From contig JAACJM010000223.1 of assembly GCA_013368315.1 (NCBI GenBank), positions 1 through 64,000 of the forward strand: DNA of 64,000 nucleotides, written 5' to 3'. The notes below the pieces were generated by a model. The model was not told the DNA's origin. It worked only from the letters and a program-made list of their open reading frames with translations, and searched no databases. Position numbers and translations under genes: made by a program. Numbering within the stretch: the stretch's first letter is position 1; every line of letters begins with the position of its first letter. Shown one piece after another: positions 2,700-41,282 of this stretch. This stretch comes from Tetrapyrgos nigripes. Taxonomy: Eukaryota; Basidiomycota; Agaricomycetes; Agaricales; Campanellaceae.

Positions 2700-4027
2700 C
2701 TATTGTCGTACTACACTTATTGTCTATATAATCTTATTGTTCTATTTATAACTACTACTATTGTTCTACATAGATGACATTGATTGGCTGCAACTGAATG
2801 CGCCAATTCAACACCTTCAAGCTTGTCATGTAAAAGCTGCACCATATGAGTTTGCGCCATCGTATTCTGTCGTCATTGAGTAGGTTAGGTATCCCTGAGC
2901 TCTTGCGAATCAACCCAAAACACTCAGCACTCACGACTAAGCAATGTATCAAACAAACTACAACTAGCTGCATTCTCAGGCGATACCCATACAGCTGTAC
3001 CTTCATCGTGCGCCAGCCTCAGTGCTTCCGCTCTAAGCTGGTGACACAACTCCTTACTCTACGTTCTCTCTCTGTCTACTGATTTCCCTGAGATCGCTTT
3101 TGATTTTTTTTCACGGATAGATGGTGGTCAAGATGTCGATACAACCGATTATAAGGGGTCAGTAGATAACGCAGATGCGAGGGTGAAGATGCAGTGGACC
3201 AGGACACATTCCTGAGGTGGGAAGGTAGACAGTTGCCAACCGCATCCAGCCAGACGAGCACGTATTCTGTCGTAAGGGATGATAGGGTGAAGGTGATAGG
3301 GTGTATGAACGAAAGATATTGTGCCGATAAATGAAGTTTTGGTTTGAAAACGTCCTATGGTACTGGAACACGCACCATTGAATAAATCCTGCATTACTTA
3401 GACGCTTTGGGAGTTGTAGAAGCGGACGGGAAGAAACTGGAGCGTCTGCTATCGGCCTTGTATATACATCGTTGAGGCCTGCACTTGAAGTCGCCCGCAT
3501 GTGTTTCTGTGGTGTGTATGGTGCAGCCGAACTTGTCGCCAATTGCAAATCCCTTGACATCTGGAGTTGTTGACCATGAGAAGTCCGAGTATTACACCCA
3601 TCCCTGACGGTGTCCAGATCCATTGCACAACTCGGCATATTGTCTTCATTCCTGTTATCCTCGTCATTAGTCGTAACCGCTCTCTTCGCTGCTACATAAT
3701 GAAGCAGCAAATATTTAGCATAGGGTGACCGATCAATAGAGCTCACCAAATAGAGTGCTGAGTAGAAAGCTAGTAGAGCTTAGATGCGAGTTGCTTGTAG
3801 AGCAGATAGAACTGGATATTGTTCTGTAGTATCTACGACTTTACAGAGAGCTTTTATACTAGATAAAGAGCATGTAATTACTAATATCTACATTGTCCAT
3901 GGACATACCTAGAGACTAAGAGGATATTGCCATTGGCCATATTGCTATCTACAGAGATATCACTACATAGTAGAAGATAAGAGTAATGTCTGGAGAATGT
4001 CCTGGAGGACTAGCATACTTATAGCTA

Positions 4028-5666
4028 CAGTGGCCCAAAAAAATTGTCCACATGTTTGGCACTTTTGGAAAGATTGCTGATTTAAGAGCTATTGAGCAGA
4101 AATCTCAAAACATGGCTGGTGGTAGCAAGAAAGCCTTTGATTAGAGCTACAATAATCTGTCTGTTTTGTCTTATTTGGCCACATATCTGTGGAGTTATGA
4201 TTGATTTAAAATTGTATGTCATTTGGACAATTTTTTGAGTTGCCACTTCAAAATCATTATTGCAATAACCTGATGTGTTATACATGATGTCATGGGTGGA
4301 GCTGTACAGCAATGTGATGTATACACCACAATGATGTCATAGCTGCCAGCTGGAGCATATATAGCCACATACAGATGCTCTACAGCTTCTATGAAAATCA
4401 TGGGGTCCCTCATATCAGCCCAGAAAGACAATCTCTACTCTCTCCTCCAAACTGCCCCTCCCTCTATCAAAATTTCAGCTCAGACTGAAGTATGAAAGCA
4501 GAGTGTTGCTTTTATAGGTAGAGAGACATGTTCTGATAAAGGAAACCATTGGATATAGCACTTTAGAAAGTTAATACCCAGCTGAAAAATGGCCACCTCT
4601 GGATCAACTCCCATATTATTAATGCTTTCCAGGATTTTGTTACTTAAGATGGTCATATAGTGTTTGCAATCTATCTCCCCCTTCATCTGGACCATTTTTA
4701 CTGCTTACTGTTGCCCCATACCCTACCCCATCATGTCATTTTCTCTCTCAAATGTCATCATTTCTGTCACATCTTGCTGTACCATGAATTTATCTCTCTT
4801 TTCTCACACATGCTGGGGCATATTTGCCCCAAAAATAATTGGTTTTGGTCTTATCTGAGAAAATAACCCACTTCTAGCCTTCTACAGCCCGGTCTTTTTA
4901 CATCTGTGCAAACTTCAAGTGAGCCTTGCTGCAAGTCACTGTAAGTTTGCACTTGTTCTGTGTTTTGGAGATCGCCACAAGACGTTTTCAGGAATGTTTT
5001 GACTGTTATAGGTTGGGACAGGTTGTCCAAGAAGAGCCTTGATGTTTCAGGCCACTTGTGTAGCAATCTGGCTTTACCAGAATGGATTTTTTTCCAATCT
5101 AACCTCTTCACAAGTAGTAGAGAGCCTCCTAGGACACCCTGCTGTATTGTTCTCATTGTCTGTATTTGTCTTTTAAGCCACAAAAGCAACTCTTGGCTTC
5201 CATACTCCAGTATGAGCTGCAATTTTTGCAGATGGAGAGGCAATTAAGAGGAGAGAGTAGAGATTGTCTTTCTGGGCTGATATGAGGGACCCCATGATTT
5301 TCATAGAGGCTGTAGAGCATCTGTATGTGGCTATGTATGCTCCAGCTGGCAGCTATGACATCATTGTAGTGTATACATTACATTACTGTACAGCTCCACC
5401 CATGACATCATGTATAACACATCAGGTTATTGCAATAATGATTTTGAAGTGGCAACTCAAAAAATTGTCCAAATGACATACAGTTTTAAATCAATCATAA
5501 CTCCACAGATATTTGGCCAAATAAGACCAAACAGACAGATTATTGTAGCTCTAATCAAAAGCTTTCTTGCTACCACCAGCCATGTTTTGAGATTTCTGCT
5601 CAATAGCTCTTAAATCAGCAATCTTTCCAAAAGTGCCAAACATGTGGACAATTTTTTTGGCCACTG
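4028..5666. mobile_element. Tc1/mariner element with about 400-bp terminal inverted repeats
   Basis: The ends are CAGTGGCCC at 4028 and GGCCACTG at 5666, flanked by TA on both sides (4026-4027, 5667-5668). The first roughly 400 bp (4028-4440) are an almost exact inverted copy of 5250-5666. Between the arms lies a decayed transposase on the minus strand. It is inserted inside the solo LTR. The related, truncated element ending at 11700 hit the same LTR family at nearly the same place. Confidence 0.88.
4480..5290 (-). pseudogene. Tc1/mariner transposase remnant
   Basis: The minus strand keeps recognisable pieces out of frame with each other. There is an N-terminal helix-turn-helix part with 'AGCPRRLSTT' near 5100-5150 and 'QIATQVA' near 5065. 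The segment around the first catalytic Asp reads 'WVIFSDKTKTN' near 4830-4880, matching the family's usual VIFSDETKIN. A later segment, 'YMTILSNKILESI', lies at about 4620-4660. Several frameshifts and stops make it non-functional. The better-preserved relative at 10965-11330 supports the assignment. Confidence 0.7.
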
Positions 5667-5935: not shown

Positions 5936-8599
5936 CATCAGACAAAATTACCCTCTGTTATAGTCTGATTATAATCCTCATAACCCCATAATAATTATAG
6001 TATATTATAACTAGATTACTTCACACCAGGTTTCTGGTAATAACACTAGAATGCTATTGTAATGTAGATAATAGTGGTGGACTTTGGGAATTATTGCATG
6101 GATTATAACTGAATTATGGGGTTTATAAAGCTCAAAATGATTGTGTGCTCTAAAAATATTTCAAGTATTATAATGATATTATAATCCTATTTTGAGGTTT
6201 GTAATGTAGGGCATAGTGGCAGGTACTGGAACTATGTTGATAGTTATAACCATATTATAATGGTATTATGGGGTTTATAAGGGCTGGAATGATGCAATAT
6301 ACCTAAAGGCCATTTACAGTGATGCAAGCCATCAGAAGGCCCAGAGGATTCAAGTGTTCATTGACTGTTATGGACATCATAAATCAAGGGCAATGAATTC
6401 ACAAACAATTGAATTTCAAGCAAGTATACTATTACAGGGGGGCATTATGAAATTGTACATAGTTCCAGCACCTCATACACAACAACGGACCAAACAGTGC
6501 CATGAAAGCCACTGTCCACGCATCCAGCGGTGGCTGTCAAGGAAAAACGTGTATGTGAGTGTGAGGTGTAGGTTATTGTGATGGAAACTTGGTACGTGTG
6601 CTCAGACTACCACTACCCCAGATCACTGGCTGGACTGCCACCAACTCGAACAATAAATAGAGAGCTTGCGCAGCGCCAACCGTTGTCATAGCCAGTCAAA
6701 TCAGCACAAGGGTTGACAGCGGTTGGCGCTGCGCAATGTACAGAGCTCCGCCTTGATGCGTAAGTAAGGAGCGAGTTGCGTGAGAGAGAAGGGAGAGGAG
6801 AGTGAAAGAGGGAAAGGAACAAAGGGATTAAGCAAAAAGGCTTGGGCCTTATATACTGTGAAGACGGGAATGGCTGACATTTCAGAGGGTGCAGATCGAG
6901 CACCCTCCTACCAAATAAAGGAAGATGACATGCATGTGTGACGTCGTCGCCGTCATCTATCCATAATGGGGAAGTGCACAGGAAATTACTCGATTTGGCA
7001 ATTATGCTTGGCTAGAACATGCCAGGGCAATGTCCTGCAACCGTTCTGCAGTTTGTAGTAGTGGTTAATAGTGCATGCAATCCAAGGTTCTCGCTGGCTA
7101 TTGAGCAGATGGTACATAAGCTTGATGGGTTTGATCGCTGTCTCTCAGTGCCTAAACCTTTGCTGGTTTTCTCAGGGTTGTTTCTTTCCACTTCCACCAT
7201 GGTGACAGCTATCCTTTCTTCACTCATCCACCCACTTGCTCTCTCCTCCTCATACTCTTCTTTTTATTGCCGTCTTACACCACCATGACCTTCACCTCCA
7301 TAGGGACTGCAGTGGGATGGCAGTGGAACTCGACAGGCAAGGTGCTTTTGTGGATACTGCCGAGTGCTAGAGTGTTGCCTTTTGTCTAGCATGGTGAGTC
7401 CTTTGTAGTCTCATTGTTTACCACTATACTAAATTACCCTGCTCGTCACGTCTTGTCCATCCTATGCATACATAGTCAGAGTCTTCAGACTTTCCTATGC
7501 TAAAGCTTTAGACGGAGCTCAGTTCAAACTCGCTCGGGACTCTTCACTTAATTTTTACGCATTGGCAGGCATATGCCTCTGGCAGCTACAGATTTTCATT
7601 TCATCAAAGATACCTGTGATAAGTCTAGCTATGAAGTAAGGGTCAGTTTGGGACGAGAAATGGGTGAGTCGTTCTCTGTATACATACATACTTACATATA
7701 GAGGGGCTACGATATCCAGTGCCAACGTGACTTGTCAGGATGCGTCGTGTCTATACATACACCTTCACATCAAAATTCATGATTTTGATTTGAAATCCAA
7801 AGAGCCTCCAACTTGAGCTGAGCTGACAGAGTCAGCGATGCAATCATCTCTGTTCATACTTATAAAGGAGTATGAATGTATAGAGATATTTATAACCTGG
7901 TAGAAAGAACTGACAGCAAGATGTTAGATAACTGTCATAACCCTCCACTTGACCGTGGCAGGATGGTAAGAAGCAGCCTTAGGCAAGCCAGATAGTGAGC
8001 CAGTATGCAGTGTGTTAGGCTTGAGAGAGAGGTGCATGATAAGGCCACCTATGAGCACAAGAAGTGAAGCAGTTGAGAGTACAACTTGTACTTTTATCTA
8101 CTGCATGAAGCTCTATTGGTAGTTCTGTAATATTATAAAGGCCTTGCAGTGTATAGAATCATTCCATTGATTGGCACACTTTTATAGTGCAATTTTAAAG
8201 TGCACAATAGTTTTACCTTGTTATAATGCCCTTACAACTATCAAAAAGATTATAGACATTATCACCATTGAAATTTTTTTGTAAGTGATAAGGGGGTTAC
8301 AACTCTGAGCACTATTGTCAATTGAAATAATTATGAGGTTTACAATGATATTATAGCCATATTATAATGGTATTATAATGTCCCAGATGTTGTAACAGGA
8401 CTACAATCTGTATTACAATCATGTTATAACATGCTGGGATATTATAATCATATTATATTGCCCCAAATGATTATGCTACATGGTAATGAGTCTATAATCT
8501 GGCCAGCCAGATTATAAGTACATGTTAAGGTATCAAAAGTATTTTATTACTTTATAATCACCATAATGGGATTATAACAGAGCGTAGTTTTGTGTGATG
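5936..8599. mobile_element. 2.66-kb non-autonomous terminal-inverted-repeat element
   Basis: The ends are inverted repeats of about 27 bp beginning CATCA[G/C]ACAAAA[T/C]TAC and continuing CTCTGTTATA, with three mismatches. AT flanks both sides (5934-5935, 8600-8601). It interrupts the zinc-cluster exon of TF copy C, and fragment D at 11743-12133 shows the uninterrupted sequence. Both subterminal regions are packed with ATTATAAT-type words (5955-6290, 8330-8580). No convincing transposase is visible, only short ORFs. Superfamily not assigned. Confidence 0.78.
6666..6736. repeat. Small inverted repeat related to the MITE at 15506-16049
   Basis: TTGCGCAGCGCCAACCG near 6666 and its inverse ending at 6736 enclose about 25 bp. 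The same terminal words begin the MITE at 15506, so this looks like a mini-derivative of that family nested in the 2.66-kb element. Confidence 0.55.
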
Positions 8600-8829
8600 A
8601 TGCTGGTGGTTTCTTCTTCCGTTTGGTACTCATCCTCAGGATCTTAGTGCTTGTATTCTCTGGGAACATTGTAGATACATACTTGCGAAAAGACAGGCGA
8701 GGTGGTTTAAAAAGCTGATAGAAATTGTAAAGCAGGTGTGTAACGTGTTAGGTCTAGTGCATGTCTGACAAAGCGAGCCGTGTTGCTGGATGGAAGCTTT
8801 ACAGCCAAACAAACATCAATATGAACATA

Positions 8830-9187
8830 CTGTACAATTTTGAAGTGAGGTTCGTGGGTTTACTGCATGACAGGCTCACGTCTGTAGTTCATTAGTTCAG
8901 AGGTCTGGGTGACGTGTGACATAATGAACTTAGTTCATTCATGACTCAAGCAGAGGTTGAAATACCATGAGCTCTGGCACTGTTCAGAGCTTCCCGATCA
9001 AAGCCTTTTCGGCACTCTATGTACGTGGCGCAGCTGCAAAAAATCGTTTTTGGGGGCTGTTTCAGCCAGAAATTTTCTTGGTCTGTCATGCAGTTCAAAG
9101 CTCAAGGTGACGTGTGACTGAACTTAAAAAACGCTAGTTCAGAGGGCCTGGTGACGTGTGACTGAACCTCACTTCGAAATTGTACAG
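8830..9187. mobile_element. 358-bp MITE with TA target duplication
   Basis: The termini are CTGTACAATT[T]TGAAGTGAGG at 8830 and its inverse ending at 9187, flanked by TA (8828-8829, 9188-9189). The subterminal motif GTGACGTGTGAC occurs repeatedly (about 8910, 9108, 9152). TIR plus TA suggest a Tc1/mariner-type non-autonomous element. Confidence 0.78.
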
Positions 9188-9189
9188 TA

Positions 9190-9990
9190 TTGAGGGTGGC
9201 TGTTTGGTGGCTGTGACAAATATGGGACAGGATTATGTAGCACCTTGGGCGGCATTGCATATTTCCAGAGATCTCCAAATATTCTTGTGCAACTCGCAAG
9301 GGGTATTAGGCCAAACCGGGGATTGCTCCCCCAAAGAGATGAGATTGAGAGGCGAAAAAGATGTGGGAACAGGGTTACATCATGTAGTAACTATCTAGTG
9401 ACCAATTTATGGTAACGCCAATGTTGTTGACATATAAGTATGATAGGTTGAAATGTGGTGATAATTTTAATACTAAGTGGGAATTGGACGTTTTGAAGTA
9501 GAAAGAGAGAAATATAACCAGTGGAAAAGAGAAAGGTGAGAGAGGTGAGTAGGTCAGCATGGTAAGGCACAGACTGAATACAAGACAAAATACGAATAGC
9601 GTGGGATGGGTGGGTGAAAGAACAGGCTGCTAAGAGAGAATGACTTAGAAATTTTTGTGAAGAGGCGGATAACGCTGGTACCTTGAGGTACTATAAGTAT
9701 CACGAAAAGTTCTAAGGAAAGGAAGTCAGAATGACATCAATGGCAGGCAGGTGAAGAGGACACACCTTGGAAAATTTCTTCAGGTGAGAGGCAGACAGGC
9801 AGGCAGGCGAGACAGATCTTCTGGATCTGTCAGAGACTTCTGGAGATACCTATGTTCTGTGAGCATCTGCTGAAACCTCCTGTACGTCTCTCGGCAGTCA
9901 TCAATGATTGAATTAGTAACTTGATCATTGATTGGGGGTCTGGCAGGTGGAGGTATCTTTGTGAGATCTTGTGCACTCTGAAATTGGAGG
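9190..9990. other. No gene recognised
   Basis: Short, unsupported ORFs only. Around 9700-9830 the sequence is purine-rich with a short GGCA/GACA run. I see no transposon termini or RNA gene. Confidence 0.5.
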
Positions 9991-12765: not shown

Positions 12766-13330
12766 CACTGGAAGCAAATCCCTGTAAATACACCACCATA
12801 CATGGGTATTACAGCAGCCTTACTACAAGTCATTCAATAAGTAATACACCTTACATTACAGGAGTATTACAAACACATATTTTTCAGAACAATCCTGTAA
12901 GACTGCTGTAAATCAGGGGGGATTACAGCAACATTTCAGTGTGACATAGTGTCACAGTAATACATTCTATAATACTGCCAAGAAATACAAAGGTATTTCA
13001 GAGTGACACTGGAAGAAATTCCTGGACTTGTCGTAAGGCTGCTGTAATACCCCTGTATGGCAGGGTAATTACAGGAATTTCTTCCAGTGTCACTCTGAAA
13101 TACCTCTGTATTTCTCAGCAGTATTACAGAATGTATTACTGTGACACTATGTCACACTGAAATGTTGCTGTAATCCACCCTGATTTACAGCAGTCTTAAA
13201 GGATTGTTCTGAAAAATATGTGTTTGTAATACTCCTGTAATGTAAGGTGTATTACTTATTGAATGACTTGTAGTAAGGCTGCTGTAATACCCCTGTATGG
13301 TGGTGTATTTACAGGGATTTGCTTCCAGTG
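12766..13330. mobile_element. 565-bp near-perfect palindrome, CACTG-ended MITE
   Basis: It starts CACTGGAAGC at 12766 and ends GCTTCCAGTG at 13330, with the 3-bp repeat TGA at 12763-12765 and 13331-13333. The two arms of about 260 bp are nearly exact inverses about a centre near 13048. A second CACTGG...CCAGTG pair (13007-13089) forms the core, whose loop copies part of the outer arm. CACT-type ends plus a 3-bp duplication fit the CACTA/EnSpm (CMC) superfamily. No coding capacity. Confidence 0.82.
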
Positions 13331-28075: not shown

Positions 28076-28290
28076 ATGTGCTAAGAGGGAGTCCGATAAA
28101 ATCGGACTCAAATCGGCTACTGCAGGCAAGACTATTTTATCGTAGTTTACATTGCTGTATGTAGTATCTACGCAGAAGAGAAGAAATTAGTAGACTCGTT
28201 CGCTTTCGTCAGTACACTAGGCTTGTTTATGCTGTACTAGTGCCACTAGTAGTCGGTGAATTATATGAGTCAATGCCAGTCTCAAACGCC
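28076..28290. other. Flank of the Penelope-like element, no gene recognised
   Basis: Non-coding DNA between the hairpin repeat and the PLE terminal repeat. No telomeric repeats seen. Confidence 0.45.
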
Positions 28291-28341
28291 TTCGCTTTCA
28301 TCAATATTCCACTCTTTTGATAACTCATGCGAGGTAAAACT
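28291..28341 (-). repeat. PLE terminal direct repeat, 3' copy
   Basis: Identical over 51 bp to 41232-41282. The ribozyme lies about 55 bp upstream in the PLE sense, so the complete pseudo-LTR is probably longer on this side and the 5' copy is truncated. Confidence 0.8.
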
Positions 28342-28932
28342 GCGACCGAGCGAACCTTGATTGAAGTCTGGGACTAGGGTAGTCTCAGAGCGAGGTGGGA
28401 CCGCGACGTGTGGGCCAACGTTTCGTCTGGGAGAGACTCATCAGGCGGCGTGATTCCCAATATCACGTCGGACTGTTTGGGTGTGAGGCTTTCGCCAAAC
28501 AACGCCAATGTGCCAAGGTGAGTCGCGGATCCTCTTTTCGAGTACTCGACGCGTTTTAATCACCTCGGTCTGACCTTTCCTCGAACCCAGGCACGTACTA
28601 GTTTGGTGCCGGTTTATTGGGCTTGGGGATTACTGGCCTCAGGGCCATCCGTTGCGTGAGTACCTTCAAAATCAGTGGTTTCCCGGTCAAGGGCTGATAA
28701 AATTTGATTTAAAAAGGCATCAACAACTTCCGTTTTCTCGGTGGCAGGTGGACTGCCAGCAACGAGGATAGGACGGGCTGGGCTAGTATTAGGTACAGAT
28801 GACAGACGAGTACTTAGTATGTACTATGATTTAATCCTACTGATTTTTTGACCCATCCGAAGCTGCCATTCGAGCGGAGCCCCGGAGGGGCGTAGTGTCA
28901 GAATGGTGGGCGAGGATGGGGAAAAAAGTGGA
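28342..28932 (-). other. PLE 3' untranslated region
   Basis: Between the RT stop and the terminal repeat, non-coding apart from the ribozyme. Candidate intron-like signals (a GGTGAGT word near 28538) are on the opposite strand and were not used. Confidence 0.5.
28396..28459 (-). ncRNA. Hammerhead ribozyme (type I) of the PLE
   Basis: Minus strand, 64 nt. Stem I outer strand TGGGA, a 6-nt bulge, CCGC; core CTGATGA; stem II GTCT-CTCCC-AGAC; core GAAA; stem III CGT, 8-nt loop, ACG; then TC, with predicted self-cleavage after position 28405; then GCGG and TCCCA closing stem I. Every conserved core base is present, including the G-C pair at the base of stem II and the A-U pair before C17. PLEs are known to carry hammerheads near their pseudo-LTRs. 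Confidence 0.88.
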
Positions 28933-29812
28933 CTAAACGTCTGACGCAGCCAGTTCTTCGTGAAAGACTCCCAGAGTGTCCCAGTTGTTTTTGTTCAACT
29001 GGTCACCCAGCGCGACTGGTTTCTTAAAAGATGATAGGAAACGGAGGTTGGGGTGGCAACTCCCATGCTCCTCCCATATCTCTTCTAGTGCACGCCACAA
29101 GGGTCCGAACTCTACATCGTCCCATAGTGGATTGTGGGTGAGTTTGAGGACATGTATCAGTTCATCCTCAAGTTGTTTAGGCTTGGGATCGAGTGCTGTT
29201 GGGCGCTCTACTGAATATGAAATCTCCTCAAAGATCTTTGAGAGCCATCTCCCCGGGTAGCCGCGAGCATGTAAGCGAATGCCAAATTCTTTATGAATTT
29301 TCGCGAAATCCTCTGGCCATGAAGAGATTTGTACATAGCGAATCAATTCTCCTTTGACCCATGCTCGTTTAGAGTCATTGGAGTGGCAAGAGTTCCAGGG
29401 AATGTATAGGTAGGCATTTAACACTTTTTGGTAGACCCTGGTAACAACCACTAGTTGTGGATTGTATAATGCTGGAGTTCCTGGTGCAACCTCCAGGGAG
29501 ACATCAACATCAAGGTAGGGTAACCTGAAGTGGGAATATGTCCATTCCATCCTCATTGAGGGGTGTAGAGCCCCGAACCGTTCCTGGAAGGTGAGTACAT
29601 CCTCCATGCTCCCGACTATGACAGCAAAGACATCGTCAATGAAGCGTCTGTAGAAGAGGATGATATTACTCAGTTCCTTCAGGGGTTCAACCTCGTATCC
29701 AGCAAGGAACAGGTTCGCATATGTTGGTGCACATGCAGTACCCATTGCAGTTCCTATGATCTGGCGCCAGGTTTTACTGGCAAAGCTGACATAGTTGAAT
29801 TGAAGGATCAGG
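28933..29812 (-). pseudogene. PLE reverse transcriptase, C-terminal part
   Basis: Open to the stop at 28933. It carries the PLE RT signatures 'GTAMGTACAPTYANLFLAGYE' spread over 29725-29760 and 'FYRRFIDDVFAVI' (catalytic Asp pair), then 'LPYLDVDVSLE', 'YLYIPWNSCHSNDSKRAWVK' and a C-terminal thumb-like part. No GIY-YIG domain follows. Joining this piece to the N-terminal piece across one TCAGG gives a continuous frame ('VVLLCLILQFNYVSFASKTW'), so the RT was intact here until the chromovirus inserted. Confidence 0.85.
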
Positions 29813-30326
29813 TGTCATGAATTGCTCCCCGTCTATTCATTTCCTTTCGATTCCTTCTCCTTTACTACCTATTTCCCACTCTATTTACTTTTAACCCCAT
29901 AAACATCAACCATTTCCCATCATCGTTTATAGTTACCATCTCCCTAGATCTATAACTCACACACTTATCTCCTCCGCTTTCTATCTCCATGGACATTCCC
30001 ACTGTCAATCATTCTTTATGATCCAGTACCTTCATCTATCCATATTCAACTTATTATTCTCTCGCCCTTGACGTTTCCACATGATACCGTCTATTATTAC
30101 TTACTCTTTCCCATCTGTTCGTATTTTACTTATATACCTGTGATCTTTGTAACCTATTCCTTAGTTTGTTCACTTCGTCTCCGCTCCGTACTATTACTAC
30201 ACAGTGTAGAGCCTAGTCTGCTTACTACACACACACACTCTCTCTCTCTCTCAATCTATCTTTTGTAACTGGTCTTCTCGTATTGTGTGACTTGGGTGGT
30301 TATTGAGTGTATCGACAACCTTGACA
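29813..30326 (+). repeat. 5' LTR of the chromovirus
   Basis: 514 bp, TG...CA, bounded by TCAGG outside. A CA/CT microsatellite lies near its 3' end (30229-30252). Confidence 0.92.
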
Positions 30327-30850
30327 CTTGAACGAACTTCCATACACCCACCTCACTAAATTGAGTCTTTTTCTTGACTACCTCGTCTATTACTCTTTCT
30401 CAAAAAACAACCATCTCCCACCCCTCCTAAACCAGTCACTCTGTCTATCCCGAATTCGTTTTGAACCCTCTGTAACCCCTTCCGACTACGAACGGGTTCC
30501 ATTCCCCCTTCCTCTCGACATCTTACACACTGAATACTGGGTCTCTCACGACGAAACATATGAGCGAATCCTTGGAGTTTCGACCGACACTTCATCTGCA
30601 CAAGACGTTGGGTGTGGAAACTTATCTCAGGTGACGTAGTCCTCTCGACATTTTCATACATAACAGTGAAAGAGGACTTTGATACAGGAGAAACCGTGGT
30701 TCAGATTAGAGGACCTCTATTCTTCAGAGAACATGTCGACTACTCTCTATTATCACCCTTCCCTGACTACGGACTACCATCCTCCTTCGTCCTAGGACCC
30801 AATTACCTGGCCTGAAAAGAACTAGTATATGACAAGTCGACGATCCGCAT
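30327..30850 (+). other. Chromovirus leader
   Basis: Sequence after the 5' LTR. An open stretch 30328-30639 has the composition of a leader or decayed N-terminal Gag. I could not match the bases after the LTR to a specific tRNA. Confidence 0.45.
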
Positions 30851-32338
30851 CTGCAGACCCGAACCTCCATTGCGCTGATTGACCACATGTATTCCACCCC
30901 TTATCATTCCGAGACGCCGCCTACTTCGCTGAAAACGGTGACGATCCTTGGATTCCGTGTACCGTACAACCGTGCCTAAACCAATATAACACTCAGCGAC
31001 TTACCGCCGAAGAGATCCCGAGTGGGCTACACATTGTAACCCAACTCCAAGAACTTGCAATACGAAAAGCACATCCAAAAACTAATCCTGAGACCGAATC
31101 GGAACAAGGAACCTCTACACCTGCCAATCAGCCTTCCGAATCTAACCCAGCACCAGAAACACCTTCCAATAACCCACCAGAACCAGATAACCCTATTTCC
31201 CCTCCTTCTTCTCCCACCATTCCGTCTGCCGAAGGACCATCCGTAGCCCCTCGTCGTCCTCCTACACCCCCCTCTCCAAATCTGTCAGATCCAAACGACT
31301 CAATCATGGCTGATACACCTCCCATCGGGTCGAATGGTACTTCCGAATGAGGAAGAAAACCTGACACCTTCAATGGGGAATGCAGCGAGGCAAAACGATG
31401 GCTGGCCTTGTTCAATAACTATCTGCGCATGAATAAAAGCAAGTACCCTACTGAGGAAAGTCAGGTCTCGTTATTCCTATCATTCTTCATGGAGAAAAAG
31501 GAGGAGATTGGGCAACGCAACAATTGACCGAACATGATGAAGATGAAGAGGACGAAGAGTTGGAAAAGACGCCAGAGAAGCATAGATGGATCACTCTGAC
31601 AAGTTCAAAAAGGACTTCAGAGCTCTTGCCTCAGACGATGTGGCAAGAACGAAGATCAAGTTTGCTAGGATGAAAGGGACGGATATCAGCAGCTACAACA
31701 GCATCTTCAATACATACGGAGAAGAATCCGACTTCGGAGAAACAGCATTGTTGGAATTCTATCAGGATGGGTTACCACCTAAGCTTCGAGAGGCAGTCGG
31801 AAGAACGTATCCAAAGTGGGATGACTTCAAGGAATATAAGGAAAGGGCAGTAGAACTTCACTTAGAATGGTTGAAGGAATGGGAAAGACAAGGACGCTGG
31901 AAAACTACTTCAACGTCGAAGAGTAATCCAGGCCCGTCTCAGGGAAGAACGGTAGCAAGCGTCAATGTGCTTATGAATATGGGACCAGGTGCTAACTCGT
32001 CCTTCACTCCGTTACCCAAACTGACACCTGATCAAAGAGACCGACTCCGAAAACTAGGAGCATGCTTCGCATGTAGACAAACTGGACATATGAGCAACAA
32101 GTGTCCAACATTTCCAAAACCGTCATCTCAAAACGCTTCTCGAACTTTCTCTCCTCGTGCTGTTCAAACAGCCGAAATCATATCTTCACCACCAGTAACA
32201 GTAGCTCAGACATCTTCATCTCGAGACGCGATCAAGGATATTTCCGACATGGTTAACAGGGTTAAAGGATTAGAAGGGGAAGAAAAGGAACAAGCAACCG
32301 TCTATTTAAAAGACATTATGTCTAAATTGGATTTTTAA
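30851..32338 (+). pseudogene. Chromovirus gag
   Basis: The N-terminal part is Pro/Ser-rich and reads through ATG at 31306 to a TGA at 31348. In the same frame after it comes 'KPDTFNGECSEAKRWLALFNNYL', the usual start of the Gag core. Further frame changes occur near 31510-31600. From 31586 an ORF of 250 residues stays open, with capsid-like helices and a CCHC zinc knuckle C160-x2-C163-x4-H168-x4-C173 ('CFACRQTGHMSNKC'). Gag binds and packages the element's RNA. It is defective because of the TGA and two frameshifts. Confidence 0.85.
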
Positions 32339-32507
32339 ATCACTCCTCTGCTACGTCGTCAGTAGGAGTTGAACAGTACACCGGACAACTAAAGAACAAT
32401 CGATATAGTGTGTTATACCCCTCTAGTGAGCGAATCTTTCCTTCAGAGCTAAGAATGTCGGCAATCACTTGTAACCGACAGATACCATCAATCACACTCA
32501 AAACTGA

Positions 32508-33065
32508 ATTAATCGGCAAAGTTACTGGCGAAAAATCGACGCAAACGCCCTAATAGACAGCGGTGCAGAAGGCATAATCATCAATAGCCGGTTCGCACAC
32601 GAAAATCAACTCACCCTTCTTCCTATCAAAAACCCGTTCCCAGTACGAAACGTTGACGGCTCCGAAAACACTATGGGATGGGTACGAGAATATACCATCC
32701 AGAATCTCCATATCTATTCCCAAGACAACAAGACGTACCACGAGGAAAAGGCCGAATTTTATGTAACAGACATCGGGGATCACGATATAATCCTCGGTAT
32801 CGACTGGTTGGAAGAACATAACCCAGAAATAGATTGGTCAGTCTCGCGAATAGGCATGATCAGATGCCCTGAAATGTGTATCATAGCGAATCCCCCCATT
32901 CTCCATTTAAAAACTAAAATGAAACCTTCCCACGGACCCACCATAAAGATTACCAAGTCAGATGGTTGGAACCAATTGGACGATTCAAACCAGTTGCTCA
33001 ATCAAAAATTGCAGGGCGACGCCGTCGAATTCCTGTTCGATCCTTCCAGCGAGGTTCAGAGGTAA
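32508..33065 (+). pseudogene. Chromovirus aspartic protease region
   Basis: Contains the active-site motif 'ALIDSGAEGIIIN' (about 32550-32590) and the second-half motif 'HDIILGIDWLEEHNPEIDW' (about 32780-32835), typical of Ty3/gypsy retropepsins that cut Gag-Pol. The frame ends at a TAA at 33063 and differs from that of the RT, so a frameshift separates protease from RT. Confidence 0.82.
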
Positions 33066-33129
33066 TGGTGATCTTTACTGAAGATGGCTGTGGGAGAGAT
33101 ACGATCCGGAACAATGGGAACAAAATGTA

Positions 33130-35328
33130 ATGGAAGAACTGTTGGGGAACGAGGAAAGAGTAACGATGCTGAACGAGGAAACGTCAGAAACACCGAACCT
33201 GAACATCCATGCGGGATTCACGAAGGCACAAGAACTTGCAGAGGCAGCCCAGAACATCCAAACCGATATACCTCTTAAAGATAAGATTCCTTCGCAATAT
33301 CACCAATTCTTACGAGTTTTTGACAAACAAACCTCAGAACGACTACTGAGACGTGGCGAGTGGGATCATGCCATCGAACTAAAACTGGACTTTGAACCAC
33401 GTCCCTGCAAAACGTACCCTTTATCCCTGAATGAACAGAAGGAACTCGACGAATTCATCAAAGAGAACCTAGAGAAGGGATACATAAGGCCGTCAAAATC
33501 TCCTATGGCAAGTCCCTTCTTTGTGAAAAAGAAAGACGGAAAACTACGTCCAGTACAGGACTATCGCGCCTTAAACAGAGGGACTATCAAAAACGAATAC
33601 CCCTTACCGCTCATATCAGAACTTGTAGACAAACTGAAGGGGGCACGGATATTTTCCAAAATCGACCTCAGATGGGGATATAACAACATACGCATAAAGG
33701 AAGGAGATGAATGGAAAGCGGCGTTTAAAACCAACCGCGGACTTTTCGAACCAACAGTGATGTTTTTCGGTCTTATGAATTCTCCAGCCACATTCCAAGC
33801 GATGATGAACACTCTTTTCAAGGACCTGATCGACTCTGGAAAAGTCGTGATTTATATGGACGACATTTTAATATTTACGGAATCACTGGAAGAGCACCGA
33901 AACATGGTAAAGCAAGTACTTGCACGACTCCAGGAGAACGACCTGTACGCTAAACCGGAAAAGTGCACCTTCGAAACCAATTCGGTAGAGTTCCTAGGTC
34001 TCATTGTTTCACACAATACATTAGCAATGGACCCAGTCAAAGTCGAAGGCGTAACCAAATGGCCGACCCCACGTAACGTTAAAGACGTACAGTCATTCCT
34101 TGGCTTCGGAAATTTCTATCGTCGTTTCATACGAGACTTCTCAAAAATTGCACGACCATTGTTCGATCTGACAAAGAAGGATCAACCATGGAAATGGTCA
34201 GATGAAACCGAAAGAGCCTTTCAGGCACTCAAAGATACGTTCACATCCTCCCCAGTCCTCCTCATGCCCAATCATTCTAAACCATACCAAGTAGAAGTTG
34301 ATGCGTCTGATTACGCTACAGGAGGTATCTTACAACAACAAGGATCGGACGATAAATGGCATCCTATAGCTTATCTATCGAAAGCTTTGTCCGAAACAGA
34401 ACGGAACTACGACATTCACGATAAAGAACTGTTGGCAATCATACGCGGGCTGGAAGCCTGGCGACATTACCTCGAAGGCAGACCACATACTATTGAAATC
34501 CTAACCGATCACGACAACCTCAGATACTTCACTACCGCTCAGAAACTCAGCCAGCGACAAGCAAGAATGGCCTTGTTTCTGACTAGATTCGACTTCACGC
34601 TCACTCACAAACCCGGAAGCCTTAATCGAAGTGACCCACTCTCTCGAAGGCCAGACCATAAAGAGGGGGTTGAGAACGACAACAAGGATAGGATCTTGCT
34701 TGACCCCAAGTTCTTCAGGATCCGAGCAACGAGGCCAGGAACTGTAACCACAATCGGAGATACGGAATTGAGAAAGCGGATTAAAGATTGCCCAGAGAAG
34801 GATGCCGAGGTCGTGGGTGCATTACAAACTATTTTTAACAACGGACCGTGCGTGCTGGCAAAAAACTTGCAGGAATGGAACTATGAAGATGGAATCATCC
34901 TGTTCCGAGGAAAGATCTACGTCCCAAACGACCAACAGCTCAGGCAAGATATTGTGAAAATGCATCATGACAGCCTTACCATGGGACATCCGGGACGATT
35001 CAAGACGTACAAACTCGTTAGCAGAGAATTCTGGTGGCCTGGTATGTCAGTATTCGTTCGTGACTACGTTGAAGGATGCGCTACCTGTCAGTTAACCAAG
35101 GCAAATAATCACCCAGCACATGTACCATTAATCCCGAATGAGATACCAGAACGAACCTTCGGCACGATTACAACCGACTTCATCACGGATCTGCCAGAAT
35201 GTGACAGCTTCAATGCAATTCACGTCACAGTCGATCGTTCAACAAAAACAGTTGTTATTTCTCCATGCAGAAAGGATATCGACAGCGACGGAACAATCGA
35301 CCTATTATTCGACAACACTTGGCGATGA
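33130..35328 (+). pseudogene. Chromovirus RT-RNase H-integrase N-terminal half
   Basis: A 732-residue open stretch. RT domain: 'YRALNRGTIKNEYPLP' about 145-160, 'KIDLRWGYNNIRI' about 177-189, catalytic 'YMDD' at 242-245. RNase H: 'VEVDASDYATGG' about 388-399 and 'IHDKELLAI'. Integrase zinc-binding H613, H620, C650 and C653, and first catalytic Asp ('TTDFITDLPE', about 683). It ends at a TGA at 35326 where the next codons continue the integrase in the same frame, so this is one nonsense change in an otherwise whole pol. Confidence 0.93.
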
Positions 35329-35533
35329 TACGGTCTGTGGGACAAAATGATATCTGACCGCGGACCTCAATTCGCAAGCCAAGTAATGAAAGGAATATAC
35401 GCTAAGTTAGGTATCACTTCAGCACTCAGTACAGCTTATCATCCACAAACAGATGGTGAGACAGAAAGGTTCAATCAAGAACTCGAACAGTACCTTCGGA
35501 CCTTCTGCAACTACCGCCAAGACGACTGGGTTA
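35329..35533 (+). pseudogene. Chromovirus integrase catalytic core, continued
   Basis: In frame with the upstream ORF after its TGA: 'DKMISDRGPQFASQ' (second catalytic Asp) and 'AYHPQTDGETERFNQELEQYL' at 35436-35490 (catalytic Glu). The frame runs to 'DDWV' and is cut by the Harbinger-like element. Confidence 0.9.
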
Positions 35534-35817
35534 GGGCCTATTCGGATGCCCACGTTTTCCGTTGTGTATCATGTAATATTCCCATTTTTAGTAATGAAAA
35601 CGTATTTTGTCAGTCGCGTTCGAAAAAAATACGCAGCTCCGTAACAAGTGAAAAACCATGGTCTGTTCAGCCGACCATCATGCGGAACAATATCCGGAAC
35701 AATACGCATGAGGTGCGTTCGGTTGCCAAGCTGCGTTTCTTGCGCTGCCGCTGCTCACTGCTGCTGATCTCGTTCTTTTTCTCTTTCTCTCTTTTCTCTT
35801 CTCGTTTTTCCTTCGCA

Positions 35818-36357
35818 ATGTCTGCAGAAGAGCCTACAGGGGGTCTTCCAAGTATCTCGACCCCTGGTTCACCTACCCAGCAAGCAGGAGACCCATGGAC
35901 AACGGAGATAGACTCGAAAATTCTCTCCCACCTAGGACAGGTCAAGAAAGACAAGAAGCTGCAGAGGTGGACCTTCACTGTCCCTGTCTGGACCAATCTG
36001 GGCAATGAGTTGGAGTCTCAGGGTTATCCGGGCTTCACTAACACACAACTGAAGGAAAGACTCGCATTTGTACGTCTATTAACATTTTTTATTTCTTTTT
36101 CGAGAACTGAAGTACTTTCAGCTATGAAAACAGCTGCCGAAATCATCAGTTTCCACCCTGCCAACACCTTGCACTCCTTCCATCACTTCAGCTCCCGCTC
36201 CTGCTCCCACTCCCACTCCTGCTCCTGCTACTACTCCTACCACTCCGCTTCCGGCTGCTACTGTGAACGACATCACTAATTGGACCAGTGAGGCAGATGC
36301 CCATGTGATTACTAGCTCATCCATCCACTCAGCGCCAGAAAGCTTGGAGGTATGATA
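35818..36357 (+). CDS. Myb/SANT-like protein of the Harbinger element
   Basis: Two exons. The first begins MSAEEPTGG and holds a Myb/SANT-like module 'WTTEIDSKILSHLGQVKKDK...WTNLGNELESQGYPGFTNTQLKERL' (about residues 26-85), ending at a GTACGT donor near 36070. An acceptor AACAG near 36132 gives a Pro/Ala/Thr-rich tail ending 'SSIHSAPESLEV' with a stop near 36357. PIF/Harbinger elements encode such a Myb-like partner that helps the transposase reach the nucleus and bind the ends. The tail may be truncated by the internal deletion. Confidence 0.6.
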
Positions 36358-36528
36358 TTCCTCTGGGAAGTAGCGCTTGTAGCTAGTGGTATGGACAGCG
36401 GCAGCAGCGGCAACAACAACAGTAGCAACTGTTGCAATTAGTGCACGACGACGATGTTCTAGAGATTGTGAAGGAAGGTGCTGGGATCCGAAGTTGCTAG
36501 TGGATTTAGAGGAGCGTGTGCGTACCAT
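36300..36528 (-). pseudogene. Harbinger transposase, N-terminal fragment
   Basis: The ORF begins MVRTRSSKSTSNFGSQ near the right inverted repeat. It includes an Ala/Val-rich stretch and 'YHTSKLSGAEWMDELV', which resembles the fungal Harbinger transposase motif before the DDE nuclease ('YHTS.L.G..W..EL'). The catalytic domain is missing; the frame then runs antisense into the Pro/Ala/Thr-rich tail of the Myb-like gene. Confidence 0.6.
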
Positions 36529-36681
36529 TGTGCCGCATCCGACGTGCTCTCAAACGTAACGGTACATCTGCAAACGTTGCTACGACGCAACATAAAAAGT
36601 GATATTCCCACACATCGGCTAAGTTACGGAAACGGAACGCTACGTGACGCTACGAATTACAAATGGCATCCGAATAGGCCC

Positions 36682-37586
36682 TTAAATACCTACCTTACGC
36701 TGAATTCTGCCACAATACACGAGTCCATTCAGCAACTGAGAAATCGCCGTTCGAATTACTTCATGGATATCTACCCCGACTCTTCCCTACAATCAATCCA
36801 ATTTCACACGTACCAAAAGTCGAAGAACGCCTTCAGAATTTGGACATACTCCGAGAAGAACTAAAAGCAAGTCTGTCGACAGTGGCGGAAATGATGAAGA
36901 AACAAAACAAGGACCATACGAACGAAGGAGTGAAATTTAAGGTTGGAGACAAGGTGTTACTAGACCGAAAAAATCTGAAGACAATGAGGCCAAAAGCTAA
37001 GTTGGCAAATTGTCGTCACGGCCCATTCAAAATCACTGACGTTATCAGTGAAGTCAACTATCGACTCAAATTACTGAATACCTGGCGCATTCATCCAGTC
37101 TTCCACGCTTCACTCCTGTCGCCATACAAAGAAACCGAAGCTCATGGGGTAAACTACCCAGGAGAACCAGCTGAATTACTTCCCGAAGACAACGAATATG
37201 ATGTAGAAGCAATTCTGGATTCAAAACCAACGAGGAACCGTCAGGGAGTACAATACCTTGTCAAATGGCTAGACTACGCTGACTCAGAGAATTCATGGGA
37301 ACCAGCATCAGGGCTAACGAAGGTAAACGATATGATCGAAACTTTCCATCAACAACACCCAAACGTGTATCGACCAAAAAACCTGATACGACCAGGAACA
37401 ACAGTGCGCTCATTGGGAGTCACCATAGGAGATATATGGCGGAGTACTCGTGTGCTTCAAGCGAAAGCACAACTCCAAAGAGGAACATTGTCATGGATCG
37501 CTGGTATTCTATGTCCTCCTTCCCATCCCACTCGGCAACCGAACTTGGAATTACGTCATCATTCATCTATCACATTCCCTCGTTAA
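36682..37586 (+). pseudogene. Chromovirus integrase C-terminus and chromodomain
   Basis: After one TTA the frame resumes as 'KYLPYAEFCHNTRVHSATEK' and continues through 'FKVGDKVLLDRKNLKT', the GPF/Y-like 'HGPFKITDVISEVNYRLKL' and 'IHPVFHASLLSPY' to a chromodomain, 'YDVEAILDSKPT...QYLVKWLDY...NSWEP' (about 37199-37330). Chromodomains steer integration toward heterochromatin. The fragment at 47770-48600 has the same 'DDWVKYLLYAEF' junction uninterrupted. Confidence 0.9.
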
Positions 37587-38268
37587 TAACATCCACCTTA
37601 ACGACATTAATAGACGGCGTTTACTGTCAAACTCATCTCCGAGCGATAACCTGACCGCTCACTTGACACTTACATCACACGAGGCAACAACTATAAAAGA
37701 TACACCCCACATCAGAGAACGACAGAACACCATCCATCGCTACCAGTCAAACAACAGTCACTCATACTCCCACTACCTAAATGTCAACCACTTCCTCCAC
37801 CATTTCCACCGCCGCACGGCCAACTAATGGGGGACGTTGCACATATGGACGACGCTCAGGACGTCAATGTTGACTCTCGAAACAACACCAAGGACCTCAC
37901 AATGGATGTAGACGGTGCACATGGGGAGGAGAGGATGGACCAGGACGATGTATATTGGGAAGAGGACACAGAGCTACGTGTGTAGTTCATCGAACATCCC
38001 TACGAGCAGAGCATAGAGGAAACCTTGGATGGGGAGACGGCAGCGTATGGGGTGCACACATCATCCTACAAAACGACGACAACGACGGATGGAGTGCACC
38101 AGGCTGGGGTTCTGAAACCAACGTCACAGGATGGGGCGAACCCGGCGACTTCACTGACTATTGGCCAGAAGCGTGGGAGCTGGACAAGTGACTACGTGAA
38201 CAATGGGCGAAACACTGGATGAACAGCTTAACGAGCTCCAGTGAAAGCTCGTCTTAAAGAGGGGGTAA
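37587..38268 (+). other. Chromovirus 3' internal region and polypurine tract
   Basis: Mostly non-coding. An acidic/Gly-rich open stretch (37955-38191) has no recognised domain. The purine run AAAGAGGGGG at about 38256-38265 precedes the 3' LTR. Confidence 0.65.
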
Positions 38269-38782
38269 TGTCATGAATCGCTCCCCGTCTATTCATTTCC
38301 TTTCGATTCCTTCTCCTTTACTACCTATTTCCCACTCTATTTACTTTTAACCCCATAAACATCAACCATTTCCCATCATCGTTTATAGTTACCATCTCCC
38401 TAGATCTATAACTCACACACTTATCTCCTCCGCTTTCTATCTCCACGGACATTCCCACTGTCAATCATTCTTTATGATCCAGTACCTTCATCTATCCATA
38501 TTCAACTTATTATTCTCTCGCCCTTGACGTTTCCACATGATACCGTCTGTTATTACTTACTCTTTCCCATCTGTTCGTATTTTACTTATATACCTGTGAT
38601 CTTTGTAACCTATTCCTTAGTTCGTTCACTTCGTCTCCGCTCCGTACCATTACTACGCAGTGTAGAGCCTAGTCTGCTTACTACTCTCTCTCTCTCTCTC
38701 TCTCTCTCAATCTATCTTTTGTAACTGGTCTTCTCGTATTGTGTGACTTGGGTGGTTATTGAGTGTATCGACAACCTTGACA
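38269..38782 (+). repeat. 3' LTR of the chromovirus
   Basis: 514 bp, near identical to 29813-30326, followed by TCAGG. The microsatellite here is a pure CT run (38681-38707) instead of CA+CT. Confidence 0.92.
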
Positions 38783-39995
38783 TCAGGCATAAAAGGACTA
38801 CAATGAGTTCTTTTTGCAAGCGGATCTTCAGGTTTGCAGCTTCTGTGAGTGAGGAGAAGTGCATATCAGGCACTTGGAGTAGGCATGCAATTTGTTGTAC
38901 TCCATCTTCCATTGGGATGTTGGGGTACATTGCAACAACATCTCTGGTGACCAGCCATATTTCTTTTCCGCGTGGAAGTTTAAGGTCCAGTAATTCCCGA
39001 CAAAATGTCTTCGAGTCTGGTAGGACCCAGGGGAATTTGCGGAGGAGAGGCTTGATCTGATAGTCAACCCAGCTCGACGTGTTTGCCAACAGAGTATCAA
39101 ATGTGGGGACAATCGGTCTCGCAGATAACGGCACTTTGTGTATCTTTGGGATGACTTTCAGTGTAGGTACTTTTTCAAGTCTTTCACTGTAGGGGTGGAT
39201 TAGCCATTGACACTGTTGTTTCGTCAGATATTTGTAACATTTAATTACAATATCTCTGTATGACAGGTGTAGCAGGTCATGGTCTGGATCCTCCTCCGTA
39301 TATGACACATTTTGCAGTAGCTTGAGTCCAGCTTTGTGGTACCATTGACTAGTGACCAGGCATAGGCTGAGGTTTTTGTCAGATGGGACAGCAAGGACAT
39401 TGTTGTCCTTGAGTAATCCTAATAGGTCTTTGAGATGTTTCTCATTGATATTAGGGTGGACGCGGATGGCTTGTCTGCTCAACACTTCGACCTCGAGTTG
39501 GTCATGGGTAACCCTCAGCGCTTTCTCAACTATGTCAGCGAGGAATGGGCCATGGGCCTCTGGTTTGGCAATGTGGAACTGTGGAACGTATTCACGTTGT
39601 CCACGGTTCATTTCCGGGAGGCCTAGCCACTTGCAGATAGTTTGCTGTGTGCCTGGTTCTTCATCTTCCCCATCTCGGCATAGACGAAGTCGTCGAACAA
39701 AGTCAACGAATGCGTCATCTACAGATTGCCAGGAGGTAGGTGGAGGGCGTGGAACAAACTTTGAGTTGAGCGCTAGCATTTTCTTCTGTTCATATGATAG
39801 AGCCAGGTCAGTCATATTATGGAATGCACAGTTTGTGATTCTGGTATCATAATACAATTCAGACATGTTAAGAAGAACAAAATTACTGCGTAACGACGGA
39901 GGTGCATCAAAGAAGACAGGTGGATACAAGCTGGGCTTGAAGTGATGGAGTCTGGTGTCAGGCGACAGCCAGGTTGTCACTCAATGAGGGTCAGG
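38783..39995 (-). pseudogene. PLE reverse transcriptase, N-terminal part
   Basis: About 420 residues in one open frame. They contain PLE N-terminal and finger motifs 'LGLLKDNNVLAVPSDKNLSL', 'KVIPKIHKVPLSARPIVPTF' with 'ANTSSWVDYQIKPLL', and RT motif A 'LVTRDVVAMYPNIPMEDGV'. The frame is interrupted by the chromovirus at TCAGG and continues at 29812. No ATG is obvious at the start (a GTG at 39980 is the first usable start-like codon), so translation may be coupled to ORF1 or use an intron. Confidence 0.85.
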
Positions 39996-40006
39996 TGGAG
40001 GGGGTT

Positions 40007-41221
40007 CTACTCGTCGTCGTTGGTGGACTCAGACGGTTTCTCCTTCGCCTTCCCTTTCTTCGCCTTCGCGTTTCCGCTTCCTTCGGCAGCGTTTCCATTT
40101 GCGCCTTTTCTCTCCTTCATCCCTTTCCTCTCATTCTCCGACGCTGTCTTCTTCTTCGCCTTGGGTTTCTTCTTGGAGGAAGAGTCCATGGTCGTAGATG
40201 TAGTGGGTTTGGCGTTCTGCTTCGACTTCAACGTATCTTTCTCTCCTTGTAGTTGTTGTAGAACTATGGGAAGAGTTAGATATGTCAGGTACAAAGGGTG
40301 AGAGAGGGTTTGGGATTGGGGATGGAATTGGAGGACACGATAACTCACCTAGTGCTTTAACCCTGGCATCAAAGTCACCGAGTTTTTCATCGATGAGTTT
40401 CCCAATGGGTTTAGTCGCGTCCTTCATCTCGACATCCTCGCGGGCAGTAGCAATAGCAGCCTGTTTGGCTTCATCTGCGGCTGTGGCGTTGTGGAGGGAG
40501 GCGGTGTACTCGTAACCAGCGGTTTTGAGTTCATTTGCGAAGGCGGTGACGATAGATCAGATGTATGTATCCCAGATCTTGGTGTTATCACGTCCAGAGC
40601 TGGTGACGATTTGACTTGCGTAGTCTTCAAGCTGTTTTTGCAGTTTGGAGGTGCATCCGTCGACGTTGACCCGCTTGCGGTGAAGGGAGATGGAGGTCTC
40701 GTGACAGGCAAGGATCCATACAGTCGCCTTCTCCACAGCAGCGGCAGCAGCTAGGTCAAGGGCTTCTCGGGCTTGAGTGACATTTCCGTCGTTCTTCGCA
40801 TCCTCCAGAACTCCTTTTGGGAATTGGAATTGCGGGCCTTTGAAGTGATTAGCGACGTACGTGGGGGTACCAGTAGACGCTGAGGAGGAAAACTTGCGCT
40901 GGGCAAGAATGGCTTTCTGCAGACCATCCTGGGAGTACTTGAAGTCATGAAGACCTGAAGTATACTTCTCCAGGAAGGCTTTGATAACAGCGGGTGGAGG
41001 TTCAACAGCGGTAGGAGGGAGCCGTTGAACCTCTTTAACCCATGCAGGCGGCAGTTTTTGGGTAGAGGGTGTGAGGGTATTATTGATGGTGGTGGGGGTG
41101 GGAGTGGGAGTGGACGAAGAGGGAGTGGGGTTGGGGGCATCTGCGCCAGAGGTATCAAGTCGTCATCGTTTGAGCGTGTGTTCCTTAGTTGAGGAAGGCG
41201 GATTCGCGTTCTGGTTGGACA
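40007..41221 (-). pseudogene. PLE ORF1, Lys/Ala-rich protein
   Basis: ATG at 41221, about 370 residues over two exons (donor AG-GTGAGT near 40347, second exon near 40265-40007). It starts MSNQNANPPSS, is Pro-rich, then has an Ala/Lys helical region ('DLAAAAAVEKATVW', 'KQLEDYASQIVTSSG') and a highly basic C-terminal tail with 'KKKPKAKKKTASENERK', ending 'STNDDE' 12-30 bp before the RT frame. Two TGA codons interrupt it (near 41162 and 40557), each following or replacing a probable CGA. The position suggests an ORF1-like nucleic-acid-binding partner of the RT; function is inferred. Confidence 0.65.
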
Positions 41222-41231
41222 TAGTGTAACA

Positions 41232-41282
41232 TTCGCTTTCATCAATATTCCACTCTTTTGATAACTCATGCGAGGTAAAACT
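41232..41282 (-). repeat. PLE terminal direct repeat, 5' copy
   Basis: 51 bp identical to 28291-28341. It ends abruptly at 41282, consistent with 5' truncation. It overlaps nothing else and lies 11 bp upstream of ORF1. Confidence 0.8.

Follow-up and report, generated by a model that had tools for sequence, protein, structure and literature searches.

A type I hammerhead ribozyme motif, complete in all its parts, lies at 28396-28459 on the minus strand of the window, the stretch of 64,000 nucleotides of Tetrapyrgos nigripes DNA analysed here. It is a new member of the already published hammerheads of Penelope-like elements (PLEs). According to the reading that we consider probable, this motif lies in the 3' terminal region of an endonuclease-deficient fungal PLE, where it would form a 3'-terminal fold before the tail of the element, with cleavage, if any, acting on read-through RNA or late in the cycle.

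The hammerhead motif and its host element

All the parts named in the original prediction (the core, stems I to III, the bulge, the loops and the UC dinucleotide) were found in their places on the minus strand. The main features are the following, family 1 being the family of the window element.

28396..28459, minus strand: type I hammerhead ribozyme motif, from the sequence, a structural scan against shuffles, and relatives; cut predicted between 28405 and 28404
28438..28444, minus strand: catalytic core CTGATGA, from the sequence; unchanged at 8/8 family-1 places
28421..28424, minus strand: catalytic core GAAA, from the sequence; GAAA at 5/8 family-1 places, AAAA at 3/8

On this strand, distal stem I is formed by TGGGA (28459-28455) and TCCCA (28400-28396), and a one-sided bulge of 6 nt (ATCACG, 28454-28449) leads to proximal stem I, in which CCGC (28448-28445) pairs with GCGG (28404-28401). 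Stem II consists of 4 bp (GTCT 28437-28434 with AGAC 28428-28425) closed by a loop of 5 nt, and stem III of 3 pairs (CGT 28420-28418 with ACG 28409-28407) closed by a loop of 8 nt, while the cleavage-site dinucleotide TC occupies 28406-28405. The motif thus combines a CUGANGA...GAAA core, a UH cleavage site and three paired helices, and is open at stem I, as in type I hammerheads. Judging from these sequence features, the window copy is likely able to self-cleave.

A scan for the core together with its stems recognises a single place in the window (28444, minus strand), and the same scan of 300 dinucleotide shuffles (19.2 Mb) returned no strict match and one loose match. The case rests on the stems, because the bare core pattern, gaps included, is no rarity: its 34 matches in the window, against a shuffle mean of 19.8, are no enrichment, since at least 34 were counted in 11 of 100 shuffles. 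In the covariance search with Rfam models, which had been proposed as a check, nothing reached the gathering score. The best model, Hammerhead_3, stayed at 24.8 bits against a gathering score of 48.5 (E 0.0037 for 351 bp and 0.67 for 64 kb), and its alignment places the stems in a register different from that described above. This shortfall reflects the model library; the motif is classed by its core and helices. The best unconstrained fold of the window copy (-16.3 kcal/mol, z 0.44) is not the hammerhead, which comes out 2.1 kcal/mol weaker under energy rules that omit the non-canonical and tertiary contacts of the core. Elsewhere in the window, a long near-perfect hairpin at 12991-13105 resembles mir-263 on either strand, with scores under the gathering level, and is likely an inverted repeat.

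The surroundings of the motif support the original prediction in its assignment of the ribozyme to the sense strand of a fungal PLE, in the 3' region of the element.

28342..29812, minus strand: 3' part of the PLE, by alignment with the genomic copies L009, L010 and L011
38783..41231, minus strand: 5' part of the PLE, by alignment with L009, L010 and L011
28342..28395, minus strand: 3' tail that follows the ribozyme in the PLE, where the 3' ends of the copies differ by a few bases
28933..29814, minus strand: C-terminal portion of the reverse transcriptase frame of the PLE, sharing 96% identity with the L010 frame of 706 aa, its first residues lying at the gypsy junction
29813..38782, plus strand: Ty3/gypsy-type LTR retrotransposon within the PLE, with LTRs at 29813-30326 and 38269-38782
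28291..28341, no strand: 51-bp target-site duplication, 3'-end copy; 2 end bases are assignable to either side; found once in L012
41232..41282, no strand: 51-bp target-site duplication, 5'-end copy, from comparison with L012

The PLE spans 28342-41231 (minus strand) and is interrupted by the gypsy insert at 29813-38782, the LTRs of which are 514 bp long and 97.9% identical. The reverse transcriptase of family 1 is represented by L010, where a frame of 706 aa remains open. It aligns with P0032, a protein holding a reverse transcriptase and a GIY-YIG domain, at 29% identity over 363 residues, through GTAMGTACAPTYAN and RFIDD, an alignment which identifies it as a PLE-type reverse transcriptase; the pairing of both domains marks PLEs in the passages of PMC11167929 and PMC3846280. 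Relatives of the L010 protein include one from Armillaria ostoyae (55%), and the searches gave no match to Pfam at E up to 1, no NCBIfam match close to the cut-off, no relative among viral contigs, and no solved structure by sequence. Close to the element lies a copper amine oxidase frame, whose named relatives we take to be mostly Agaricomycetes.

No GIY-YIG domain was found in three L010 frames (E up to 1) or in the reverse transcriptase frame (E up to 5), searches which very diverged domains could escape; the domain of P0032 was matched in the same run in which the family-1 frame gave none. With no GIY-YIG detected, family 1 falls among the endonuclease-deficient PLEs, the only kind present in fungal genomes according to the passages of PMC3846280, which describe apparent priming from telomeres or double-strand breaks. 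Neither (TTAGGG)2 nor (CCCTAA)2 occurs in the window, and the family-1 ends displayed carry no telomere repeats, so the window element is not classed as telomere-associated. Partial tandem copies of the pseudo-LTR kind are present in family 1 at L010, and the window copy is without a tandem partner.

The two copies of the 51-bp repeat flanking the window element are identical. Both flanks are matched by L012 (contig C464), in which the repeat is single and which is an empty site, allelic or recently duplicated; the repeat is therefore a target-site duplication. It had originally been described as a terminal direct repeat 55 bp from the ribozyme. The distance holds (28396 to 28341), but the repeat lies outside the element, and the empty site led to its rejection as an element part. 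Longer duplications surround other copies. In L011 (about 932-1065 and 5094-5247) they measure 131 vs 151 bp, with 83% identity over 151 columns and a 20-bp gap, and in L010, taken with L004, the duplication covers about 821 columns (97.6% identity) and leaves short stretches next to the element unmatched; this last one could be an older duplication of other origin. No duplication was found in the flanks of L009. Rotifer Penelope elements have target-site duplications of 8 to 10 bp, or none, in the passages of PMC3846280. The PLE copy of L009 contains, around 3195-3345, some 150 bp of inserted sequence whose ends are inverted (CACTGCGGGCATAAT), resembling a small terminal-inverted-repeat element.

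Copies in the genome and a second family

A search of the genome (98.46 Mb, 587 contigs) with 28200-28620 as query retrieved 10 places, two of them in flanks (41232-41282, the second copy of the 51-bp repeat, and L012 on C464) and eight in elements: the window, C46 (L009), C71 twice (L010), C2 (L011), and the diverged family-1 copies on C49 (L013), C36 (L014) and C380 (L015). CUGAUGA is unchanged in all eight, and GAAA in five, with G12 lost through a change to AAAA in the other three (L011, L013 and L015). Stem III is likewise whole in five, one pair being broken in the upstream copy of L010 (L010_up), L013 and L014, and the core and stem III are both whole in three (the window, L009 and L010_main).

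The original prediction was to be refuted by copies with a broken core and broken pairings, and this is partly the case: in five of the eight, either the core is altered or a pair of stem III is disrupted. They may be regarded as decayed copies, since the core of the diverged relatives has been kept far better than its surroundings. The identity of core and stem II to L013, L014 and L015 amounts to 18/19, 19/19 and 18/19, compared to 43/78, 41/81 and 40/82 outside the ribozyme (pooled Fisher test, p = 5e-12, the sites and loci not being independent). This conservation is partly ascertainment in L013 and L014, because both were found through the ribozyme stretch; L015 was also found by its reverse transcriptase. 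The alignment speaks for conservation and not for covariation, as 93.1% of the cells are paired against 92.0% with shuffled columns (as high in 33/500), and no compensatory change is present in the 17 pairs across the relatives. Between the window and its four near copies, 14 of 17 differences are C/T or G/A in a CpG- or CpA-type context, a count that covers the first ~120 alignment bases and has no control.

A search with the family-1 reverse transcriptase protein gave 18 matches, including seven loci at 29-31% identity (L040-L046) that constitute a second PLE family. The scan for core and stems revealed a hammerhead in six of these seven; in L043, the remaining one, this motif is present with a single mismatch in stem III. 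This ribozyme, which Rfam did not list up to E 5, differs from that of the window: its core reads CUGAAGA, stem II pairs GUA with UAC, stem III is a long hairpin and the distal stem I measures 9 bp. Its position, at the 3' end of the PLE, matches that in the window family. The 3' end of family 2, used as query, retrieved 18 places, in 14 of which the motif was read (core complete in 14/14, stem III in 12/14), with three unread and one fragment (C442:24233) without the motif. Family 2 is the more numerous of the two families, and bears the telomere repeats of a telomere-associated PLE: CCCTAA repeats follow the hammerhead wherever the downstream stretch was displayed. Tandems occur in L045 and L043, with 578-bp repeats, and also in L046; both repeats of L045 carry the hammerhead, and telomere repeats lie between its tandem copies.

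For the family-2 motif, the best predicted fold is again not the hammerhead: pairing of AUAACGG with CCGUUAU (e.g. L045 6895-6999) gains about 7 kcal/mol over it, and this competing fold could be a switch or a misfold. An ATCC junction was considered as the transcription start of family 2 and rejected, as L044 and L046 continue upstream with an apparent exon and intron start, and L045 is consequently 5'-truncated at ATCC. Genomic copies of this family seem to retain a spliceosomal intron (GTGAGC ... TTTTAG; L044 6750-6950, and L046 near the contig end). Adjoining the family-2 copy of L041, a minisatellite of roughly 149-bp period extends over about 6283-9500.

Insertion junctions and proposed role

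Copying of cleaved RNA from its new 3' end would be expected to yield insertions that end at the cleavage site, and full copying of RNA with a ribozyme-made 5' end, insertions that begin there. Among 26 element places, which represent fewer independent events because query copies, allelic pairs and tandem neighbours are counted, the cleavage site is spanned by 25 (8/8 of family 1 and 17/18 of family 2), and no insertion 3' end falls at the site in any of them. None of the three family-1 5' regions begins at the site either: those of C2 and C218 start further in, and that of C71, the query, runs upstream into a partial copy with a hammerhead of its own. The remaining place, a family-2 fragment of 69 bp (C442:24233-24301, minus strand; L044 7734-7802), is wholly downstream of the site and preceded by a telomere-like repeat. 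It begins right at the base of stem I, 21 nt beyond the point of cleavage, either because the reverse transcriptase may have stopped at the fold or by chance.

As no ends lie at the site, this pattern suggests that the templates of the genomic copies were RNAs not cleaved at their 3' hammerhead, or else circles. It agrees with the in vitro result for the lizard element PAc, in which insertion took place without need for cleavage and, in the passages of PMC11167929, no reads start or end at the site.

The probable reading given at the outset can be developed as follows. In the element RNA, the motif would form a 3'-terminal fold that sets off the tail, and reverse transcription would start at the tail. 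Any cleavage would be directed at read-through transcripts of tandem copies, or come late in the cycle, given that the genomic copies have kept RNA on both sides of the site.

The short stem III had originally suggested that the ribozyme might work as a dimer across tandem copies. In a double hammerhead of this kind, two copies, belonging to one tandem transcript or to two RNAs, would pair through this stem and cut each other, as described in passages on newt satellites and small PLE hammerheads (PMC6155905, PMC6466107). This is a conceivable arrangement, since the isolated stem III is more stable as a homoduplex (-13.0 kcal/mol) than as a hairpin (-1.4 kcal/mol), and the C71 array does carry two hammerheads in tandem. 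However, 741 of 2000 shuffled loops pair as stably, which gives no hint of selection in favour of trans pairing, and this control led us to reject the dimer as demonstrated. Moreover, C71 is the only tandem array of family 1 among its eight places, and the family-2 motif comes with its own, long stem III. Cleavage between paired copies is accordingly a possibility to be kept in mind, but not the one that we expect.

Somewhat more tentatively, the hammerhead of fungal PLEs may be mainly a 3'-terminal fold which presents the tail to the reverse transcriptase, with RNA cut at the 3' hammerhead excluded from insertion; the endonuclease-deficient family 1 would have left the telomere and insert at internal breaks with long single-stranded ends, giving rise to duplications of 51 to about 821 bp.

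It seems rather unlikely that the motif is an inactive relic, inherited by the family but without cleavage or expression in the present window copy. The gypsy insert splitting this element, the loss of G12 and the broken stem III pair in three of the eight places each, and the advantage of 2.1 kcal/mol that the competing fold has over the hammerhead would all fit such a relic, but the window motif itself is complete, and so is that of L010, which has an open reverse transcriptase frame.

A retrozyme-like route is improbable. Cut monomers would be ligated and copied from the tail around the circle, restoring the ribozyme in the insertion, for which passages on retrozymes offer a precedent (PMC7761336). 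Such circles would likewise leave no insertion ends at the cleavage site and could produce tandems, but direct evidence for them is absent here, and the telomere repeats between the L045 copies fit two successive additions to a chromosome end instead. Finally, chance resemblance, in favour of which only the sub-threshold Rfam score and the lack of enrichment in the bare core pattern could be invoked, is hardly credible and was rejected, given that the full structure is missing from 19.2 Mb of shuffles at equal strictness (one looser match) and that it was already disfavoured by a second PLE family with a hammerhead at the equivalent position.

Comparison with known systems

Fungal PLEs were reportedly included among the PLE hammerheads of Cervera and de la Pena 2014 (Mol Biol Evol 31:2941). 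Other accounts of these ribozymes are available (PMC6155905, PMC7761336, PMC11167929), and in their passages the published PLE hammerheads are likewise of type I and located in the PLE repeat region. They are mostly minimal forms without helix III, whereas stem III comprises 3 pairs in family 1 and a long hairpin in family 2. In Pleurotus ostreatus, another agaricomycete, five Hammerhead_3 matches have been listed, with the link to PLEs absent from the passages of PMC5040776.

A parallel to the junctions comes from PAc, a lizard Penelope element which also carries a PLE hammerhead, and in which insertion is independent of cleavage and reverse transcription starts inside the RNA. PAc differs from the window family in having a GIY-YIG endonuclease and a hammerhead that overlaps the start of its ORF (passages of PMC11167929). 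The in vivo role of PLE hammerheads has been called a mystery in a review (passages of PMC7761336). The two PLE families of this genome differ in their hammerheads and in their setting, which is next to telomere repeats in one and internal in the other, and their readable junctions bear on when PLE RNA is cut, a question that becomes testable in fungi.

Telomere-associated endonuclease-deficient PLEs and Terminons resemble the elements described here, in which no GIY-YIG domain was found and a hammerhead stands at the 3' end (passages of PMC6431247 and PMC3846280). Family 2 is similar to them also in its reverse-complement telomere repeats just past the hammerhead (passages of PMC6431247). The window family, in contrast, has no telomere repeats at its ends and is surrounded by long target-site duplications, which bear on how a PLE inserts away from telomeres without a recognisable endonuclease.
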